From the NCBI RefSeq assembly GCF_025698945.1, contig NZ_JAILWM010000003.1, forward strand, positions 1-64,000: 64,000 bases of DNA. Reading direction: 5' to 3'. Shown here in pieces: positions 34,327 to 42,996 of this stretch; position 1 is the first letter of the stretch, and each line of letters opens with the position of its first letter. The notes beneath the pieces are model-generated. The model was not told the DNA's origin, made no database searches, and saw nothing but the letters and a program-made list of their open reading frames with translations. The position numbers were made by a program, and so were the translations under genes. This stretch comes from Nitrosopumilus sp. (GTDB lineage Archaea > Thermoproteota > Nitrososphaeria > Nitrososphaerales > Nitrosopumilaceae).

Positions 34327-35352
34327 TTAAGCATTTGATTGGATTATCTCTGAAATGATATGAGCTGTTTTTTCTGCACCATTTGTATTGATCTGATTTC
34401 TTTTTTCTTCAAGTTTTTCTAAAATTAAAGAGTCTAGTCTGTTTATATCCTCAAAGACAAATCCTTGTTCTTTTGCATTGTCTTCTTGCTCAAAATGACC
34501 CTTTATTGGAATGAATATTGAGGGTGTTCCATAATATCTGGCCTCATCTATGGTTGATTTTCCTGCAAGAGATATCAAAACATCTGCAGCATAGATGTAT
34601 TCATGTAGGTTATTTACAAATCCTTCATTTCGTACATTTTCAAATTTTCTACTAACGGCAGGACCTGCTACTAGAATAATTTCAAAATCTTGATTGATCT
34701 TTGAGATTGCATCTAGGGCTTTTTGTATGAGAAAAATTCCTGAACTTGTTCCACCAATAGATATGAGAATTGTTTTTTTTACAAATGAGAACTTTTCTCT
34801 TAATTGTTCTCTTGTTGAATTTGTTTGTCTAACTATTGGTCCGACTCTTCTGATATTATCATGATTATCACCAACTTCTGGAAGAATAACTATGTCGCAT
34901 TTTTTGATTAAATCTCTCATTGATTTGTTCATCTTTTTCTCAATTAGCGATGCTAATCCTTTGGTGAATCTAGTCTCTAAAATATCTGTGATTAGAACAG
35001 TTGGAATTTTTTTATGTTGTGCATTGCTTAGGGATGCAAAATCCTCGTCACTAACTACCAAATCCGGTTTGTCATGCTCTAGAATCTTTTGAGAAGTGCT
35101 TTTGCAGTCTTTATAGTATTGATAATAATTCCACAACCACTTTGCTGTACTTTGCAGTGTTCCATTATTAATAATAAAATCTGGTGGATTGTATACGTCT
35201 TGTACATTAAAATCTAAATTCTTTAAAATTTTAGCAGCTCCACTACCTGTAACAAAATTTATTGAAATGTTTTGGAAATTATTTACAATTGCAATATCTC
35301 TTGTTACATGACCTAATCCAATTGGACTAGAAAAAAAATTCAAAGCATTCAT
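34327..35352 (-). CDS. Glycosyltransferase, GT28/MurG-like fold
   Basis: 341 residues. N-terminal FFSSPIGLGHVTRDIAI matches GT-B enzymes that move over lipid-linked acceptors, and the C-terminal half has ISIGGTSSGIFLIQKAL and the nucleotide-sugar-binding ISLAGKSTIDEARYYGTPSIFIP. Similar archaeal proteins act on cell-surface polysaccharide or glycolipid synthesis. Donor sugar unknown. It begins 81 bp before tRNA-Val on the other strand. Confidence 0.82.
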   Translation of the reverse strand: MNALNFFSSPIGLGHVTRDIAIVNNFQNISINFVTGSGAAKILKNLDFNVQDVYNPPDFIINNGTLQSTAKWLWNYYQYYKDCKSTSQKILEHDKPDLVVSDEDFASLSNAQHKKIPTVLITDILETRFTKGLASLIEKKMNKSMRDLIKKCDIVILPEVGDNHDNIRRVGPIVRQTNSTREQLREKFSFVKKTILISIGGTSSGIFLIQKALDAISKINQDFEIILVAGPAVSRKFENVRNEGFVNNLHEYIYAADVLISLAGKSTIDEARYYGTPSIFIPIKGHFEQEDNAKEQGFVFEDINRLDSLILEKLEEKRNQINTNGAEKTAHIISEIIQSNA

Positions 35353-35432
35353 GAATTTCTTTGAAATTTAATCAAATTTCTAGATTCTGACTTGTCTCAA
35401 AGTTTAAATGGTTTTTAGAAAGGTAGGTTTCT

Positions 35433-35507
35433 GGGCTCATAGTCCAGGTCGGTTATGACGTCGCCCTTACACGGCGAAGATCCGGGGTTCAAATCCCCGT
35501 GGGCCCA
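35433..35507 (+). tRNA. tRNA-Val (anticodon TAC)
   Basis: Acceptor GGGCTCA/TGGGCCC with G-U pairs, anticodon stem TCGCC/GGCGA with loop CTTACAC (anticodon TAC), T stem CGGGG/CCCCG with loop TTCAAAT, discriminator A at 35507. No intron. The last 16 bases of the gene recur at 37520-37535, marking a possible integration site. Confidence 0.94.
35492..35507 (+). repeat. Putative attachment-site copy inside the tRNA-Val 3' end
   Basis: aatccccgtgggccca, the last 16 bp of tRNA-Val (T-arm 3' half, acceptor strand and discriminator), matches 37520-37535 exactly. tRNA 3' ends are the classical targets of archaeal integrases. Confidence 0.6.
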
Positions 35508-35636
35508 TATTAACTTCATAAAGTAATACTTTTTAGTGATTTTTATGCTTAGAATTACTCAATTTGTAACATTGATCGCATTACACTTTACTGCAAATAA
35601 ATTACATTTAATTAATTTCATCATTTCATACTCTTA

Positions 35637-37427
35637 ATGACTAAAACAACGCAAATAACTACCGTAATGATCGCAGTACTCTTACTTGGAAGTACAACAG
35701 GACTTTCATTTGCACAAAATGATTTTTCTGTAACAAAAACTGCAAACCCTATTGATATCAATGTGTTAGGTTCTGGAATTGATGAAACCACTACAATCAC
35801 TATTACCGTTACTGGTTTTGGTGGAGAAACTATCAATGAGATAGATGGAGACATTATGTTGGTCTTAGATGAATCTGGAAGCTTAGACTCAAATGAGTTT
35901 AACCAAATGAGAAACTTTGCAATAGCACTTGTAAATGCATTTGATTTCACTAACACCAATACTCAAATGGGGGTTGCATTGTTCTCTGGAAATTCAATTT
36001 CAAGCACTGATGGAAAACTTTCTAGAGTTCTTGTATCTTTAACTGATGATAAAACTACTCTTCTTAATGCACTCAATGGTATGACCTCTCAAGGGGGATT
36101 CACATGCATTGGATGTGGTCTTGAAAGAGCAGTAGATGAGTTTACAGCTAATGGAATTCCTGGTAATGTTCCAATCACAATAGTCTTGACTGATGGTCAA
36201 AACAACAGACCTATCTCAAATCCTTCGACATTTCTTAATCAACAAGTACAAAGCTTAGCTAATCTTGGTTCTGTAAATGTTGCAATAGGTATAGGTAATG
36301 GTGTGGACCAATCTGAACTCCTAACTATCGCTGGAGATCCTTCAAGAGTATTCCTGAGTCCTAATTTTGCAGAACTACAGGCACTTATTGATACCATTCT
36401 TGAAGATGTTGTTGTTAACAATGCACCTTCACAAGTTTCACTTGTAGAAACGACCAATGAGTATATTGTTAACCATTCAACTATTGTGCCAAGTCCAGAT
36501 TCACAAACCACTTTAGTTGGTGGTCAAGTTCAACTTGTCTGGAATGATATTGGTTCTAAAACTGATGTTGGTGACACTGATGGATTATTAGAAGAAGGTG
36601 AAACATTTACAGTTTCATTTGATGTTCAGTCTAATCAAATCGGAGACAATCTTGATGTAAATGATCTAACCAATTCTGAAATTACTTTTGTAAGTGCAGA
36701 TAGTACACCTGGTTCATCTCCTCTTGTTCAGACAACCATTAATGTCAATGGAGCACCAATTGCAGATCCACAGTTTGTTTCTATAGATGAAGACACACCA
36801 AAAGACATTGTACTTACAGGAAGTGACCCAAATGGTGATGTGTTAACATTTACGATCGATACAAATCCAATGTTTGGAACACTATCTGATTTCAATGCAA
36901 ATACCGGACAAGTAAAGTATACTCCAGATGAGAACTTTTGGGGTTTTGATTCATTTACTTTTACTGTAAATGATGGAACTCTTACTAGTATTCTAGCTAC
37001 TGTTGATATTGAGGTAATTGCAGTAAATGATCCACCAACATGTGATGATGCAACAGCTTCTGTTGTGTCACTGTGGCCACCAAATCATAAATTCAGTGAT
37101 GTTACTGTCAATATGAGTACTACAGATGTGGATGGTGATTCAGTACTTGTAATGATCTCAAGCATATTCCAAGATGAACCAGTTGACGGTACCGGTTCTG
37201 GTGATACTGCACCTGATGCAGAATTTTCTGATGATGATATGTTGTCAGTAAAATTGAGAGCAGAACGTTCTGGTAATGAAAACGGAAGAGTTTACACCAT
37301 TTCAGTAATAGCTGATGATGGTCATGGAGGTAGTTGTACTGGTCAAGTTCTAGTTGGTGTACCACATGACAAGAAGGATATTCCTTTCAATGATGGTGCA
37401 ACATACGACTCGACACAAATCCCATAA
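35637..37427 (+). CDS. Secreted von Willebrand factor A and cadherin-like domain protein
   Basis: 596 residues. Signal peptide (MIAVLLLGSTTGLSFAQND). vWA domain (about 70-270) with intact MIDAS residues Asp78, Ser80 and Ser82 (LVLDESGSLDS) and later TDGQ, indicating metal-dependent adhesion. A DUF11/CARDB-like beta domain (about 290-370), a Big_9/cadherin-like domain (about 375-470) and a C-terminal domain opening DPPTCDDATASVVSLWPPNHK follow. Probable surface adhesin or extracellular matrix protein. It lies between tRNA-Val and a copy of the tRNA 3' end. Confidence 0.85.
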   Translation: MTKTTQITTVMIAVLLLGSTTGLSFAQNDFSVTKTANPIDINVLGSGIDETTTITITVTGFGGETINEIDGDIMLVLDESGSLDSNEFNQMRNFAIALVNAFDFTNTNTQMGVALFSGNSISSTDGKLSRVLVSLTDDKTTLLNALNGMTSQGGFTCIGCGLERAVDEFTANGIPGNVPITIVLTDGQNNRPISNPSTFLNQQVQSLANLGSVNVAIGIGNGVDQSELLTIAGDPSRVFLSPNFAELQALIDTILEDVVVNNAPSQVSLVETTNEYIVNHSTIVPSPDSQTTLVGGQVQLVWNDIGSKTDVGDTDGLLEEGETFTVSFDVQSNQIGDNLDVNDLTNSEITFVSADSTPGSSPLVQTTINVNGAPIADPQFVSIDEDTPKDIVLTGSDPNGDVLTFTIDTNPMFGTLSDFNANTGQVKYTPDENFWGFDSFTFTVNDGTLTSILATVDIEVIAVNDPPTCDDATASVVSLWPPNHKFSDVTVNMSTTDVDGDSVLVMISSIFQDEPVDGTGSGDTAPDAEFSDDDMLSVKLRAERSGNENGRVYTISVIADDGHGGSCTGQVLVGVPHDKKDIPFNDGATYDSTQIP

Positions 37428-37428
37428 C

Positions 37429-37444
37429 CTTTTTTTCTTTTTTT
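37429..37444 (+). terminator. T-rich terminator
   Basis: Two runs of T separated by a C (ttttttt-c-ttttttt) begin two bases after the stop codon of the vWA protein gene, typical of archaeal oligo-T termination. No stem is needed or seen. Confidence 0.55.
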
Positions 37445-37519
37445 GAATTTTTAGAAAAACAATTTCAAAGATCATTTCACGCCTAAATGCGTCCATTTTA
37501 ATCCCCAAAACAGTAGGTG

Positions 37520-37535
37520 AATCCCCGTGGGCCCA
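37520..37535 (+). repeat. Second copy of the tRNA-Val 3' end
   Basis: aatccccgtgggccca, 16/16 identical to 35492-35507, with no surrounding tRNA structure: the upstream sequence cannot form the T stem or anticodon arm. The 2.0 kb between the copies holds only the vWA gene and terminator. This is the expected outer boundary of an integrated element. Confidence 0.6.
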
Positions 37536-37578
37536 CTTTTTTAGGAATAAAATTAGACGCAAATTCTTGACTTTTGTT

Positions 37579-37764
37579 ATATGTGTTGCCAGTGGAACTT
37601 TCAAAAATGGTTCAGGCCTTTGTTGATTTATGATCCCAATTGGTGGTTGAAGACCAACACAGACTGATGAAATTGTTGTAATTGATACAAATAGCCTGGA
37701 AATTATTGATAGATTATCTCTTGATAAAATTCCTTTTTGGATTGAAGTTCCAGGAAATCAATAA
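37579..37764 (+). pseudogene. Degenerate beta-propeller-like gene remnant
   Basis: An open frame reads ICVASGTFKNGSGLC-stop-FMIPIGG-stop-RPTQTDEIVVIDTNSLEII ... PFWIEVPGNQ-stop, with in-frame stops at 37624 and 37648. EIVVIDTNSLEIIDRL and IPFWIEVPGN resemble YVTN/NHL beta-propeller repeats. Only the last blade or two is left, without start or upstream blades. It lies directly behind the second tRNA-end copy, fitting decay of a formerly longer gene there. Confidence 0.5.
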
Positions 37765-37788
37765 TATGAATTAAAAATAAAAAAGAAA

Positions 37789-38814
37789 TTATTTTGTAAG
37801 TACTATGGAGTAGCTTACAGTGAATGGTTCTGAGTTCATTGTATGAAGTGCCAAAGCATTTCCTGAGAACATTGTAGAGCCAGCAGCCTTTGATGGTACC
37901 AATATTAGAGCATAATATGTTTCTCCATCAGGAGTCCAATATGGAAGTCCCATTAGCTGAGCTTTTGACATTGGTCCGAGTAATGTAACAATTTGAACAG
38001 GCTCAGATGCATCGTATGTCAGATGTCCTGCATATGATTTCTCATTAGGCCCTAACAGAACTGCAAGTTGATGAGTTTCATGTCCAACACCAGGATCTTG
38101 TTTTGATGTCATAGTTCCTTTTACCACTCTCTCACCTGAAGTAGAATGCTCAGTGTATGTTACAGAGTAGCTTACAGTGAATGGCTCAGTGTTCTTTGTA
38201 TGAAGTGCTATTGCATTTCCTGAGAACTGCCATACACCTGAAGAAGTTTCTCTATCTACAAATGTTAAACCAAACTTTGTTTTACCATCAGTAGACCAAA
38301 TTGCTTGTCCTTTATCCATTCCTTTTTTCAGTGGACCATGCAGTGCTACAAGCTGAACATTTTCAGATGCAGTATATGTAATGAATCCACGATAAGTGTT
38401 CTCACTTGGGGGAAGAATTATTGCAAGTTGATGATTCTCATGCCCTTGACCAGGATCTTGTACTGATGTGATAATACCATTTACAGTCTTTGGTACTTTT
38501 AATTGGGCTTCTTGTTTAGCTTTCTCCATTGTTTCAGCTTTTGCGTCTTTCTTTGGTACTTCTTTAGCTTTTTCAGCAGATTCTGTTTTCTTTTCAGATT
38601 TTACCTCTTCTTTCTTTTTTACCTCAGATTTCACTTCTTTTTGAGGTTCAGAACAGAGTCTATCACCGCAGACCTTTTTTGAGTTAATTACACTTGATGA
38701 AGTTCCTTTGCTTTTTAGAGCATCTGCAGAACCAATTAATCCCATTGGGGCGGCAATTGTACCTGTAAGTAATACAGCAACTGTGAAAATTGCTAAAAGT
38801 ATTATTTTTGTCAT
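37789..38814 (-). CDS. Secreted protein with two tandem beta domains
   Basis: 341 residues from ATG 38814; an ATG at 38832 would add six, but a TATA-like tttttataagg about 26 nt before 38814 favours the shorter form. Signal peptide, then a Lys/Glu-rich flexible linker of about 80 residues, then two homologous domains of about 110 residues, each beginning G(I/T)(I/M)TS(V/K)QDPGxGHExHQLA and ending in NAxALHTxNxEPFTVSYS. No family name known to me. No Cys in the domains. Likely surface or matrix protein; ligand unknown. Confidence 0.75.
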   Translation of the reverse strand: MTKIILLAIFTVAVLLTGTIAAPMGLIGSADALKSKGTSSSVINSKKVCGDRLCSEPQKEVKSEVKKKEEVKSEKKTESAEKAKEVPKKDAKAETMEKAKQEAQLKVPKTVNGIITSVQDPGQGHENHQLAIILPPSENTYRGFITYTASENVQLVALHGPLKKGMDKGQAIWSTDGKTKFGLTFVDRETSSGVWQFSGNAIALHTKNTEPFTVSYSVTYTEHSTSGERVVKGTMTSKQDPGVGHETHQLAVLLGPNEKSYAGHLTYDASEPVQIVTLLGPMSKAQLMGLPYWTPDGETYYALILVPSKAAGSTMFSGNALALHTMNSEPFTVSYSIVLTK

Positions 38815-39122
38815 TATGCTATGATTTTTCATACCTTATAAAAAAGATCAAAAACTAATCAAAATTCATTTTCAAAAAGCATACCACAAACTGTCCGTTA
38901 TAGCCAAATATTTTTTTCCTGTTGATTAATTATGCAAACTGCTACCCAGTGCAAAATCGTCCAAAAGTCATTCCTGCAATCAACTCTAGTTAGAAGAGAG
39001 AATCAAACCTCTTTTCTATCTAGAGGTCAAATGAATTTTGATGATATTATGGGATTCTCCGATATCGATAACCCTTTGAGAAATTTTACTTATCAAATTA
39101 AGAGGAGGTGTATTTGATAATA
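38815..39122. other. Intergenic region with no supported gene
   Basis: The interval holds divergent promoters for the flanking genes. A short frame from ATG 38932 to 39117 (61 codons) is possible, ending in NFDDIMGFSDIDNPLRNFTYQIKRRCI at the SD of the next gene, but it has no domain or Cys signature and I do not annotate it. A good Shine-Dalgarno gaggaggt occurs at 39102-39109. Confidence 0.5.
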
Positions 39123-39413
39123 ATGAAAACAATCATGGCAATATCTGTAATGACAATCTTGGCTGCAGGAATGATTACTCCTGTTTTGCAAGACGTCTAT
39201 GCATATCCAACTAAAGCACAACTAAGTGATGAAAAACTCAAAGCAAAATCATATGGTATTAAAACAAAAGATAAGATACCATTCAATGATCCACACACTC
39301 TAAAGCATGATGCATTTGGAAATGTAAAGAAAGAAGAAGTAAAGACATACAAGAAAATAGTTGAACAATACAATGCAAAACAGATTCTCAAAAATCTATA
39401 CAAACTAGGATAA
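39123..39413 (+). CDS. Small secreted protein, unknown
   Basis: 96 residues from ATG 39123. GTG 39108 and TTG 39114 are alternatives, and the Shine-Dalgarno gaggaggt at 39102-39109 is best spaced for the TTG. Signal peptide (MAISVMTILAAGMITPVLQDVYA) then a Lys-rich helical chain with KDKIPFNDPHTLKHDAFGNVKKEEVK. The IPFND string also appears at the C terminus of the vWA protein (37789's neighbour at 35637). Terminates in a T run at 39414-39420. Confidence 0.7.
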   Translation: MKTIMAISVMTILAAGMITPVLQDVYAYPTKAQLSDEKLKAKSYGIKTKDKIPFNDPHTLKHDAFGNVKKEEVKTYKKIVEQYNAKQILKNLYKLG

Positions 39414-39585
39414 TTTTTTTCCTATCTTCATCCTTTTTCCCCAGAAATGATCAATTTGTTCCATTTGGAACTCATAATATGTAAAAAATTGTCAAACACC
39501 ATAAAAAAAATTCCTATTTAGTTATCCTACCGTCTTTACGCTTGAATCAGCAAAATCCTGAAATTTGATTAATTATAAAAAAATT

Positions 39586-39621
39586 TTTTGTTGCTAGCCT
39601 AGTAAACCGCTAGCAACAAAA
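39586..39621 (-). terminator. Perfect 13-bp inverted repeat at a stop codon
   Basis: ttttgttgctagc at 39586-39598 and its exact complement at 39609-39621, loop of 10. On the minus strand it spans the end of the coding region and stop of the small membrane protein and is followed by a T run, fitting a hairpin-assisted terminator. Alternatively a DNA-binding palindrome with GCTAGC core. Confidence 0.55.
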
Positions 39622-39743
39622 TATGCACCAGCACCCATTCCAATTACAGCACCAATTGCCATACAAATAAGATCAAACTTTACGACCTTCTTGAATGGGG
39701 CATGTACCATTTTATCCCATGTTGAGATTTGTTTTGTGTTCAT
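39594..39743 (-). CDS. Small single-helix membrane protein (49 aa)
   Basis: 49 residues, MNTKQISTWDKMVHAPFKKV then a hydrophobic Gly-rich helix (LICMAIGAVIGMGAGAYFVASGLLG). One membrane span with a basic cytosolic N terminus. Stop TAG at 39594-39596. No family known. The start is preceded by an AT-rich stretch with a possible TATA element. Coding is supported by the hydrophobic pattern and ATG; moderate confidence. Confidence 0.5.
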   Translation of the reverse strand: MNTKQISTWDKMVHAPFKKVVKFDLICMAIGAVIGMGAGAYFVASGLLG

Positions 39744-39849
39744 GATTAGTAATACTCACAGTAATTCATCAAATTTGGTAAAATCCCTAAATGACTGGTA
39801 AGCTAATTTGTTGACTGGGGTTAATGATACAAAAAAACATACCATATTC

Positions 39850-40014
39850 ATGAATACCTCATGTAGAAAATGTGGATCAGAGCTTGAGCCAATAAAGAAT
39901 TGTCTTGTATGTGATCAGAGCACGCAATTTGAATGCAGAAAATGCCAAACACAGACTGAGGTTCAAATTCACTCATTGTGTGCATATGACAAGCCAAAGA
40001 TGAGCATAGCCTAG
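39850..40014 (+). CDS. Small multi-zinc-ribbon protein (54 aa)
   Basis: 54 residues from ATG 39850 (ATG 39808 would add 14). Six main Cys in three CxxC pairs, CRKC, CLVC and CRKC, plus a terminal C: MNTSCRKCGSELEPIKNC... A compact zinc-ribbon protein, likely binding nucleic acid or a partner. No longer domain. Followed 59 bp later by a transcriptional regulator gene. Confidence 0.6.
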   Translation: MNTSCRKCGSELEPIKNCLVCDQSTQFECRKCQTQTEVQIHSLCAYDKPKMSIA

Positions 40015-40073
40015 TGATTTCTTAGTTTTAGCTTATTTTCCACTAGTTTTTTAGTAAAAACCACCGGTACATC

Positions 40074-40877
40074 TTGTTGACAGACTTAATTGATGAGACT
40101 GCAGATTATGTTTTGGAGCTTGCAAGCCCTCAAAGATTAAACATTCTATTTGGACTCTTAAGCAAAAATCTGACACCAACTGCTTTTGCAAAAGAGATCA
40201 AGGCAACAAAACAAGAAGTTCATAGAAATTTTGTTAGATTAGAAGAGAGTGGATTGATAAAAAAGAATGTTAATGGTACCTATTCTCTGACTACCTTTGG
40301 ACAAACTGTTTGCACACAAGTTCCATCGCTAGTATTTTTGTTGCAGAACAGAAAATACTTTGAAGAGCATAACTTTGGAGACGTTCCTCAGAAATTTCAG
40401 ATGCGTTGTGGTCAACTTGCAGTTAATCAACACATCAAAGGATTCTCAAAAGTTCTAGAACAGTGGAAGACTGTCTACAAAAACTCCAAGGAATACATCT
40501 ATGAGATACTAGCTGAAGTTCCACTTGACTTGATTGAACCTCTTGTAAAACAAGTAAAAAAGGGAATCAAATTCAATTACATTTTCTCTGAATCATCTAT
40601 TGTTCCAAAAGGAAGAAAGGCTTTGTTAAAAAAACTTGGATATGATAAACTTGTGGAGAAGGGATTAATTGAGAGAAAGATGGCAAAAAATGTTCAAACA
40701 ATGCTAGTGATGAATGAAAAAGAAGTTTGCATCATGTTTCCAAACACTGATGGTGAAGCAGATCTTAGTGAGATGTTTTACTCTGATGATTCAATGTTTC
40801 ATGAATGGTGTTTGGATTATTTCAGATATTGCTGGTATGGCTCTGATGTGTTTTTGGAAAGCAAGCTAAAAGAGTAA
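40074..40877 (+). CDS. HTH transcriptional regulator with FilR1-like C-terminal domain
   Basis: 267 residues from TTG 40074. N-terminal ArsR-like winged helix (about 10-75: ELASPQRLNILFGLLSKNLTPTAFAKEIKATKQEVHRNFVRLEESGLI) and a C-terminal part with KQVKKGIKFNYIFSESSIVPKGR and a final DYFRYCWYGSD, similar to the DUF1724/FilR1 domain of methanogen regulators. Ligand unknown. Expanded in Thaumarchaeota. Regulates an unidentified target. Confidence 0.78.
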   Translation: MLTDLIDETADYVLELASPQRLNILFGLLSKNLTPTAFAKEIKATKQEVHRNFVRLEESGLIKKNVNGTYSLTTFGQTVCTQVPSLVFLLQNRKYFEEHNFGDVPQKFQMRCGQLAVNQHIKGFSKVLEQWKTVYKNSKEYIYEILAEVPLDLIEPLVKQVKKGIKFNYIFSESSIVPKGRKALLKKLGYDKLVEKGLIERKMAKNVQTMLVMNEKEVCIMFPNTDGEADLSEMFYSDDSMFHEWCLDYFRYCWYGSDVFLESKLKE

Positions 40878-40944
40878 TTTTATTCCTAAATACTGATAAT
40901 CTGAAAAATAAAACTCTAATTACTTTGAAATTTAGTAATTCCTA

Positions 40945-41304
40945 ATGGACTATGAAAAGTTCTGCTCTGAGATTCTAGCAAAGGATCCTAAGATTAGATT
41001 TGCAGCAGTCTATGATGAATGGGCTGAAAAGGTAGCTGGTGGAATGAGAGATGGTGTAAAAAGTATGCTCTCTGATCATGCAGAGAATCAATTGGTTAAT
41101 CAATCAATTCTTGATTGGAAATCAAGAAAAGAGATGGCGAAATATCTTGGAAAAACAATCTACACGTTATCTGATTATGAAAACATCAAACGATTCTCAT
41201 TTTATCTAGGTGATGATTTTTTACTTCTAGTCAGTACTGCAAAAGATGCCGAAACTAAAGTTGTAGTTGATCAAGTAATCAAACTTTACTATGAAAATCA
41301 ATAG
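40945..41304 (+). CDS. Small conserved-type protein (DUF6659-like)
   Basis: 119 residues; alpha/beta, no signal. Segments MAKYLGKTIYTLSDYENIKRFSFYLGDDFLLLVSTAKDAETKVVVDQVI match, from memory, thaumarchaeal DUF6659 proteins, for which I know no function. Placed between the FilR1-like regulator and the CcdA operon. Confidence 0.6.
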   Translation: MDYEKFCSEILAKDPKIRFAAVYDEWAEKVAGGMRDGVKSMLSDHAENQLVNQSILDWKSRKEMAKYLGKTIYTLSDYENIKRFSFYLGDDFLLLVSTAKDAETKVVVDQVIKLYYENQ

Positions 41305-41363
41305 TAACTGTCTAAAATTTCTATTTGATCTCGGATTAAATATTTGATACCGCCATTATTGAC

Positions 41364-42350
41364 ATGTCAGTACAACTAGCACCAAAAAAATTACTAATTT
41401 TTGCTCTATTTGTAATGTTTTCACTAATCTTTATTGGTGGAATATTTTATGCCACTAATGAAATTGCTATTGGCGCAGGTCATGAATTATCGTATCCTTC
41501 TTGGTTGATTATAGCATATCTTGCTGGGCTATCTATGATTATTCTACCATGTACACTTCCTCTAGTCTTTATCATAATTCCACTTAGTATGGGAAAAGGA
41601 GGAAAGAAGGGCCTTTCAATGGCATTATTGTTTGGAGCAGGATTGACAATTACTATTGCACTTTATGGTATAGGAATTGGCGCATTAGGCGAATCTACAA
41701 ATCTAGATCAAATTTCAATTTACATGTTTTTGATTGCAGGTATTGCAGCTTTTATTTTTGGATTATCACAGTTGAAAATCTTTGAATTAAAACTGCCAAC
41801 ATATTCTGGTACTCCAAAATTTATTCAGAATCGCGGAGACTATTCAAAATCATTTTTCATGGGACTGCTTTTAGGTAATGCTGGAGTTGGATGTCCAAAC
41901 CCAATGTTTTATTGGCTTTTAATTTATGTTGCAAGTACTGGTAGTATAGAAATTGGAGCAAGTCTTGGTGCAGTCCATGGTGTGGGAAGAGCAATTCCAC
42001 TAATTTTACTATCAGTTCTTGCAATTCTTGGAATAAATTACACAAAAGTAATAACCACAAATAGAGAAAACATTGAAAAAATTACTGGTTGGATGCTAAT
42101 AATTTTAGGTGCATTTTTAATTATTCAAGGAATTCCTGGAGGTCATGAATGGTATGAGAGTACCATGATACACATTGCATGGAACAATCTAGTATCCATG
42201 ACTTCGCTTCCACCTGAATTTCATATAAGTCAGCATACTCATGATTATAAAATTTGGATATCCGAAGAGTTTGTTCCAATATTATTTGGAGCATTAATTA
42301 TATTCCCAATAGTATGGTATTTTACTAAACGGAGAAAGATTACATCATGA
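41364..42350 (+). CDS. ccdA: CcdA-like membrane thiol transporter
   Basis: 328 residues, about eight helices. The two membrane-embedded Cys typical of CcdA/DsbD are visible: Cys63 in ILPCTLPLVFI and Cys177 in GVGCPNPMFYW. Such proteins carry electrons from cytosolic thioredoxin to extracytoplasmic thiols. The C-terminal part adds an external His-rich loop (GGHEWYESTMIHIAWNN and PPEFHISQHTHDY), not part of usual CcdA, which may bind copper. Operon with a YHS protein and a thioredoxin-fold protein by ATGA overlap. Confidence 0.8.
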   Translation: MSVQLAPKKLLIFALFVMFSLIFIGGIFYATNEIAIGAGHELSYPSWLIIAYLAGLSMIILPCTLPLVFIIIPLSMGKGGKKGLSMALLFGAGLTITIALYGIGIGALGESTNLDQISIYMFLIAGIAAFIFGLSQLKIFELKLPTYSGTPKFIQNRGDYSKSFFMGLLLGNAGVGCPNPMFYWLLIYVASTGSIEIGASLGAVHGVGRAIPLILLSVLAILGINYTKVITTNRENIEKITGWMLIILGAFLIIQGIPGGHEWYESTMIHIAWNNLVSMTSLPPEFHISQHTHDYKIWISEEFVPILFGALIIFPIVWYFTKRRKITS

Positions 42351-42484
42351 AGGATCCTGTTTGTGGAATGGATGTAGGAGAGAAAGGAGAATCGTTAATA
42401 CATGATGGTAAGGAATATCGTTTCTGTTGTGCCTCATGTAGATGGGCCTTTGAGAAGAATCCGGAACAATTTTCAGAGAAATGA
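42347..42484 (+). CDS. YHS-domain mini-protein (45 aa)
   Basis: 45 residues, MKDPVCGMDVGEKGES ... EYRFCCASCRWAFEKNPEQF. Cys6, Cys27, Cys28 and Cys31 match the YHS metal-binding domain (DPVCGM and YFCC-xx-C), found on copper and heavy-metal ATPases. The start overlaps the CcdA stop (ATGA) and its own stop overlaps the next ATG, so it is translationally coupled in a three-gene unit. Confidence 0.8.
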   Translation: MKDPVCGMDVGEKGESLIHDGKEYRFCCASCRWAFEKNPEQFSEK

Positions 42485-42711
42485 AAGTACAAGTTCTGAC
42501 CACTCCTGGATGTTCTAATTGCAATGTTTTAGAAAAAATGTTAAAAAAACTTGGAGTGTCTTTTGAATTAATTGATGTTACAGAAAAACCAGAATTTCTA
42601 GAAAAATATCCTATATTTACAGCGCCTGGATTGGTGATTAATGAGAAATTAGAGTTTACAGGTATTCCAAAACTTGAAGAACTTGAAAAGAAACTTTTCC
42701 ATAACAGGTAA
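42481..42711 (+). CDS. Small thioredoxin-fold / glutaredoxin-like protein
   Basis: 76 residues with redox motif C11-SN-C14 (TPGCSNCNVL) and cis-Pro region TAPGLVIN (about 47-54), fitting small thioredoxin/glutaredoxin proteins. Probably the cytosolic electron partner of the CcdA-like transporter. It starts 4 bp inside the end of the YHS gene. Confidence 0.83.
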   Translation: MKVQVLTTPGCSNCNVLEKMLKKLGVSFELIDVTEKPEFLEKYPIFTAPGLVINEKLEFTGIPKLEELEKKLFHNR

Positions 42712-42744
42712 TGTTTTTTACTCTGCAAAAATCTGTATTCTCAA

Positions 42745-42996
42745 ATGACGGATTATTCGATGAATGAAAAAATGGTAATTGTTCAATATGGTATTAAAAA
42801 ATATGAAAAAGAAGAGGAACTAATTGAGAAATTACAATCTATTTTGTCAGAAAAAGACATTCATCAAAGTATTGACACCTTAATTGGAACACAAAAGGTT
42901 CGACGTATTGGCCCTGAAATCCTCCAAAACAATGAAAGCCATACTGAGCTGCCTGAATTGCCAGAAAACCTTAAACCAGTAATTGATAATCTTTAA
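42745..42996 (+). CDS. Small acidic protein, unknown
   Basis: 83 residues, helical, Glu/Lys/Ile-rich, opening MTDYSMNEKMVIVQYGIKKYEKEEELIEKLQSILSE. An ATG five codons inside is an alternative. No Cys and no domain recognised. Possibly the fourth gene of the CcdA operon (33 bp gap), but that is not certain. Confidence 0.6.
   Translation: MTDYSMNEKMVIVQYGIKKYEKEEELIEKLQSILSEKDIHQSIDTLIGTQKVRRIGPEILQNNESHTELPELPENLKPVIDNL

Follow-up and report, generated by a model that had tools for sequence, protein, structure and literature searches.

The integrated elements of thaumarchaea are the described systems closest by host (Krupovic et al. 2019, PMC6563490). In brief, that paper gives tRNA 3' ends as the target of 39 of 68 mapped elements, with att repeats of a median 17 bp. 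In the cryptic integrated elements of the same source the integrase is by definition the most conserved protein, and the smallest is 2.6 kb. The units described here are found in the same hosts and are similar in their tRNA 3'-end targets, short att repeats, tyrosine integrases and accessory cargo. Compared with the cryptic elements as presented there, they differ in being one-gene units without integrase, with a common right-end site and a head-to-tail array organization.

Additive flexible genomic islands, known from Alteromonas (PMC4119200) and Methylophilaceae (PMC10872708), are built from successive cassettes with partial tRNA repeats at a conserved tRNA. The repeats of the Methylophilaceae island fGI-2 are copies of the last 20 bp of tRNA-Lys (PMC10872708). 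Variable cassettes with partial repeats of a single tRNA are also present at tRNA-Val in Nitrosopumilus. The additive islands are however bacterial, and the passages considered report no conserved extended site common to tRNA and non-tRNA arrays.

The tycheposons of Prochlorococcus are compared here by secondary description, from PMC10872708 and PMC11389934. They are tRNA-bounded tyrosine-recombinase islands with environmental cargo and, like the units described here, occur in marine picoplankton. Tycheposons span 4-200 kb and carry a recombinase, whereas the present units are mostly 1-5 kb without one. The unit studied here has the tRNA-fragment boundaries and lacks the recombinase.

Integrons and CALINs, archaeal ones included (PMC9668308), combine a single primary site with cassettes that bear a site on one end, and also form clusters lacking integrase; in all this they resemble what we describe. 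Here, however, the primary site is a tRNA gene, the integrase is not IntI and the site is not attC-like. We found no description of the cassettes or of their approximately 65-bp site in the open literature (subscription papers were outside the scope of the search), and their novelty is thus provisional.

The tRNA-Val locus and its insert

The window is the whole stretch of 64,000 bp that was analysed, from Nitrosopumilus sp. We suggest that the 2,028 bp at 35508-37535 are an integrase-less cassette, inserted in the 3' end of tRNA-Val(UAC) by an integrase supplied in trans and belonging with integron-like arrays. We give this reading a probability of roughly 0.7. The features of the locus are:

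34327..35352, minus strand: conserved upstream flank, GT28-like glycosyltransferase
35433..35507, plus strand: tRNA-Val(UAC), the target gene (ARAGORN; the call spans 35432-35508, plus strand)
35492..35507, plus strand: attL core, the final 16 bp of tRNA-Val, AATCCCCGTGGGCCCA; exact 16-mer with two copies in the genome
35508..35583, plus strand: cassette left end of the short left-end type, TATTAACTTCATAAAGTAATAC... (TATTAACTTC); 27 bits with a model built partly from this same sequence
35637..37427, plus strand: cargo, secreted 596-aa protein, the sole plausible gene between the two cores
37475..37535, plus strand: candidate recombination site at the right end, arm GCCTAAATGCGTCCATTTTAATCCCCAAAACAGTAGGTG plus core; scored at 61 bits (E 5e-18 in the window) by a model whose training sequences, this copy included, were then also scanned
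37520..37535, plus strand: attR core, second copy of the tRNA-Val 3' end, AATCCCCGTGGGCCCA, exact 16-mer
37536..37564, minus strand: inverted arm AGGAATAAAATTAGACGC, 31.8 bits on the minus strand
37536..40944, no strand assigned: variable flank that separates attR from the first conserved gene, with homologues at other loci in relatives; it also holds a 101-aa ORF and a zinc-ribbon-like ORF
37789-38832, minus strand: secreted repeat protein of 347 aa with an internal duplication, in the variable flank
40074-40877: HTH regulator, in the variable flank
40945..42996, plus strand: conserved downstream flank, with a 119-aa gene, a DsbD-like gene, a thioredoxin-like gene and an 83-aa gene

An earlier note on this DNA had claimed an exact second copy, at 37520-37535, of the final 16 bp of tRNA-Val (35492-35507). 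The duplication at the far boundary of the insert is indeed exact over 16 bp. AATCCCCGTGGGCCCA is confined to these two positions in the 1.75-Mb genome at up to two mismatches, and a third copy is absent from the window even at up to three. Base composition predicts 2.7e-8 copies in 2 kb of one strand and 5e-5 in the whole genome, ruling out a chance repeat. Presence of the 16-mer at many unrelated loci had been named as evidence against integration, and it is not scattered in its own genome. A core of 16 bp is also seen at most occupied sites of relatives.

The single exported adhesin-like gene that the note placed between the repeats was confirmed. In brief, the 596-aa product has a signal peptide, a VWA domain (Pfam, 2.7e-26) with the metal-site motif DESGS (DxSxS), an Ig/cadherin-like Big_9 domain (1.3e-14) and a conserved C-terminal domain. 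As cargo, this secreted, adhesin-like protein represents an accessory surface trait. Matches occur in 9 of 95 genomes, its own included, and are all partial outside its own genome; none of the 94 congeners has a full-length homologue. The same gene and repeat in all relatives would have pointed to vertical inheritance. We found the vWA gene at tRNA-Val in no congener among the 95 genomes, which rules out a vertical gene kept by all relatives.

The integrase was correctly said to be absent, as no tyrosine-recombinase fragment was found in 35508-37535 or onward to the conserved flank. Beyond what the note described, the second core ends a longer conserved site at 37475-37535, followed directly by the inverted arm at 37536-37564. 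The scan with the site model gave this as the single strong site in the window. The inverted arm resembles the left end of integrase-bearing elements, and suggests that the DNA after it is, or was, another element.

The short left-end type seen at 35508-35583 also adjoins the core at a few other loci. Its core-anchored alignment with the left end of a vWA unit in genome G001 is weak, being equalled by 9 of 2000 random windows, and we take the likeness as a lead, not proof.

Close homologues of the gene at 37789-38832 (75-85% DNA identity) are located at other loci in many congeners. Genome G030 matches 39571-41303 at 85%, with a different gene upstream, and its contig ends short of the tRNA. 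By eye, 39421-39449 (CCTATCTTCATCC-TTTTTCCCCAGAAATG), approximately 120 bp before the G030 homology resumes, resembles a decayed arm. Its model score is around 0 bits, possibly chance, and we do not claim a second degraded site there. The sequence AAAAATGGTTCAGGCCTTTG at 37600-37640 resembles a second short motif, GGTTCAAGCCTCTAYGGA, which is partly self-complementary and often found 3' of sites in relatives.

tRNA-Val as an integration site in relatives

tRNA-Val is present in 86 of the 95 congeners, with approximately 37 loci at 100% identity. Across relatives, the conserved flank lies anywhere from less than 0.1 kb to more than 16 kb away from tRNA-Val; in the most compact ones it begins 48-133 bp past the tRNA. 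Second exact or near-exact cores are located 0.9-16.5 kb downstream of tRNA-Val in G001, G010, G016, G040, G045, G054, G071, G073, G074, G082 and G092.

The sequence after attR in G001 aligns with that after the tRNA in G037 at 90.2% over 6.0 kb, starting 1-2 bp off the core. Similar alignments were obtained for G040 with G027 (110 of 119 bp), G082 with G007 (110 of 120) and G016 with G015 (107 of 119); their scores were 182-200, whereas controls reached at most 39-98. In G040, 877 bp separate the last core from the first conserved gene, which equals the tRNA-to-gene distance in G027. Judged from these alignments, the junctions in the four species pairs are exact empty and occupied sites. The search for an unoccupied site proposed in the earlier note thus succeeded in other species pairs, and found none for the window species among approximately 40 tRNA-Val loci, where the best flank matches were within the control range. 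The locus closest to the window by flank, that of G030, ends at a contig edge before the tRNA.

A tyrosine recombinase of approximately 390-400 aa begins 44 bp past tRNA-Val(UAC) or its core in G001, G054 and G040, the G040 copy having one stop. Related integrases directly follow tRNA-Val(CAC) in G094 and G041, and tRNA-Arg genes in G050 and G033. The full elements at tRNA-Val are 11.8-16.5 kb, and their cargo includes secreted genes. The proposed look for an integrase therefore gave nothing in the window insert and integrase-bearing elements at the same tRNA in relatives. These elements and the exact empty sites support the note's interpretation as a footprint of tRNA-targeted integration.

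The left end of the integrase-bearing elements, TACCCTATATTGGGACTAAAATAGGACGCAC, is an inverted form of the right-end arm, as for paired recombinase binding sites. From this we infer that an integrase recognising its own element should also recognise the cassette site. It should be noted that the left end of the window cassette lacks the arm of these elements, so that its recognition by the Val integrase is putative.

We looked for a cognate integrase in the window's own genome and rejected the candidates. These were a gene at C2:131117-132403, whose product is 36% identical to the Val integrase, and a Phage_integrase match at C1:281886-282359; neither has a site or a tRNA gene within approximately 10 kb. 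One of these two tyrosine recombinases adjoins a Thi4-like gene. As no close relative of the Val integrase is left in this genome, the window cassette is probably stranded. Neither the site pattern nor the integrase was found in IMG/VR, and a viral origin was rejected on these grounds.

Genome G091, with a reported contamination of 9%, has two near-identical tRNA-Val loci (L072 and L073) on different contigs, due to either duplication or mixed strains.

The conserved site and recurring cassettes

More than 100 copies of the conserved site of approximately 65 bp were found, in Nitrosopumilus and a small number of related genera. Essentially a single family of the order has it, mainly the own genus along with two or three more. 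The arm, with the consensus TTTTCATGCCTATCTGCGTCCATTTTTATCCCCAAAATGGTGGCTG, precedes the core at most occupied loci. Its 22-bp heart is found in 46 of 95 congeners at up to three mismatches, the reversed pattern almost never. At least one site is present at 24 of 63 tRNA-Val loci; the loci were picked partly by tRNA or motif match, and fractions apply to the loci fetched.

The sites at tRNA-Val share one direction, with 45 on the plus strand against a single free-standing one on the minus strand, and the remaining minus-strand matches are left arms touching a core. This is the head-to-tail organization of integron arrays, with one site per cassette. Same-direction arrays are also located away from tRNAs; arrays were found in G092, G036, G008, G033 and G094. 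At loci L105, L064 and L075, cores outside tRNA-Val are followed by TATGAACTTCTTATG, a second left-end type. A G073 copy of the TATGAACTTCTTATG-type core bounds a cassette common to G092.

Most cassettes are one- to few-gene units without integrase, and several recur in more than one place. The three-gene unit at the first position in G010 is the third in the G016 array (81.5%, 1.9 kb). The tRNA-Val unit of G073 matches, site to site, a unit of the G010 array at 1.35 Mb (79%, 2.3 kb), an array far from that genome's own tRNA-Val at 0.08 Mb. Contig 9 of G073 carries the cassette that comes first in G092 (86.7%, 1.4 kb). A gene with GYD repeats is carried by cassettes at tRNA-Val in G036, G053 and G082, and in the non-tRNA array of G008. 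The cassettes also encode cupredoxin, metallo-beta-lactamase-fold, pyridoxamine-oxidase-like, glyoxalase, sodium-sulfate-symporter-like and methyltransferase genes.

Relatives of the adhesin end at such sites as well. In G001, two same-direction sites flank a two-gene unit that encodes the C-terminal domain and a VWA protein, and the second of these sites is located 38 bp past the VWA stop. In G065, a gene for the C-terminal domain is followed by a site within approximately 30 bp. The adhesin family thus fits the cassette pattern.

Alternative readings and proposed mechanism

The insert may be what is left of a larger integrase-bearing element at tRNA-Val that lost its integrase and most of its genes, with no need for mobilisation in trans. 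Full elements of 11.8-16.5 kb with secreted genes among their cargo do occur at the same site, and integrase fragments beside the tRNA in G045, G074, G040, G049, G082 and G091 demonstrate such decay. The 5' integrase fragments or truncated genes that remain in G045, G074, G091 and G049 indicate that decay also happens, and some integrase-less segments in these four genomes are plainly decayed elements. In G040 (locus L063), 0-2.5 kb past tRNA-Val, two tandem integrases of different subfamilies each follow a core. The first of them is truncated, the second interrupted by one stop, and they are stacked elements in decay. The window insert, however, contains no integrase fragment, its left end differs from that of the integrase elements, and units of one gene with a clean right site are seen repeatedly, at several positions and loci. 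We therefore consider a deletion remnant, the main alternative, unlikely here. The adhesin may still be cargo of a lost or trimmed element, as the earlier note had it, but integrase-less units recurring at varied array positions and loci fit a mobile cassette better than a one-off remnant.

A dispersed repeat, such as a terminator-like or 3'-UTR element that resembles the tRNA by its end and does not recombine, is far less probable still. The sites are intergenic in 87 of 88 cases, 57 of 84 come after a gene on the same strand, and copies exist away from tRNAs. Unlike terminators, however, the other 27 of the 84 are preceded by an opposite-strand gene. A complete GGGCCCA acceptor end is largely a feature of tRNA-Val and of similar arrays or contig fragments, while sites elsewhere mostly end differently. 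Moreover, flanks match empty sites to 1-2 bp and cassettes recur with both ends at sites. A terminator or 3'-UTR repeat is thus unlikely. Many sites are nevertheless diverged and distant from any tRNA, so that some may be relocated or decayed repeats, or may serve a different function, which weighs against the cassette reading.

A true integron or CALIN, with attC sites and IntI, would account for arrays in which units of one to a few genes, with an approximately 65-bp site at one end, share one orientation, many of them without a nearby integrase; archaeal integrons have been reported (PMC9668308), and the window site folds as a hairpin of the right arm with the inverted arm (z = -3.2). Two other tested sites (z = 0.47 and -0.32) fold no better than shuffles, and the consensus lacks the conserved attC-type GTTRRRY end. 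The Val integrase has weak Phage_integrase and XerA similarity, and at E <= 1 it matched no integron-integrase model besides archaeal XerA (31.7 bits against a cut-off of 220). As the junction is a tRNA 3' end, and IntI and general attC folding are both lacking, an integron is ruled out on the tested features and is the least probable reading.

Returning to the cassette mobilised in trans, we propose the following, for which the evidence of recombination is comparative throughout. A tyrosine recombinase from the tRNA-Val/tRNA-Arg integrase clade would insert a circular cassette, consisting of gene, arm and core, at the 3' end of the tRNA by a crossover inside the core. This would restore the tRNA on the left and leave the site on the right. 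Repeated insertion beside the tRNA would then produce head-to-tail arrays in which older cores decay. We infer that both the circular intermediate and a trans-acting enzyme take part, the latter probably encoded by integrase-bearing elements that occupy, or once occupied, the same tRNA.

Ammonia-oxidising archaea rank with the most abundant microbes of the sea. How genes for surface, copper and transport functions enter their streamlined genomes is, to our knowledge, poorly understood. We tentatively speculate, at somewhat less than even odds, that Nitrosopumilaceae have separately evolved an integron-like form of gene capture. A tRNA would be the primary site, and a tRNA-specific tyrosine integrase would act in trans to shuffle small, circular cassettes without integrase across species, in tRNA and non-tRNA arrays. 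Each cassette would have an approximately 65-bp site whose end is the 3' sequence of the tRNA. Surveys of archaeal mobile elements that start from the integrase would miss such integrase-less cassettes. Their common site would allow cassettes to be listed mechanically, and gain and loss to be searched for between pairs of strains.
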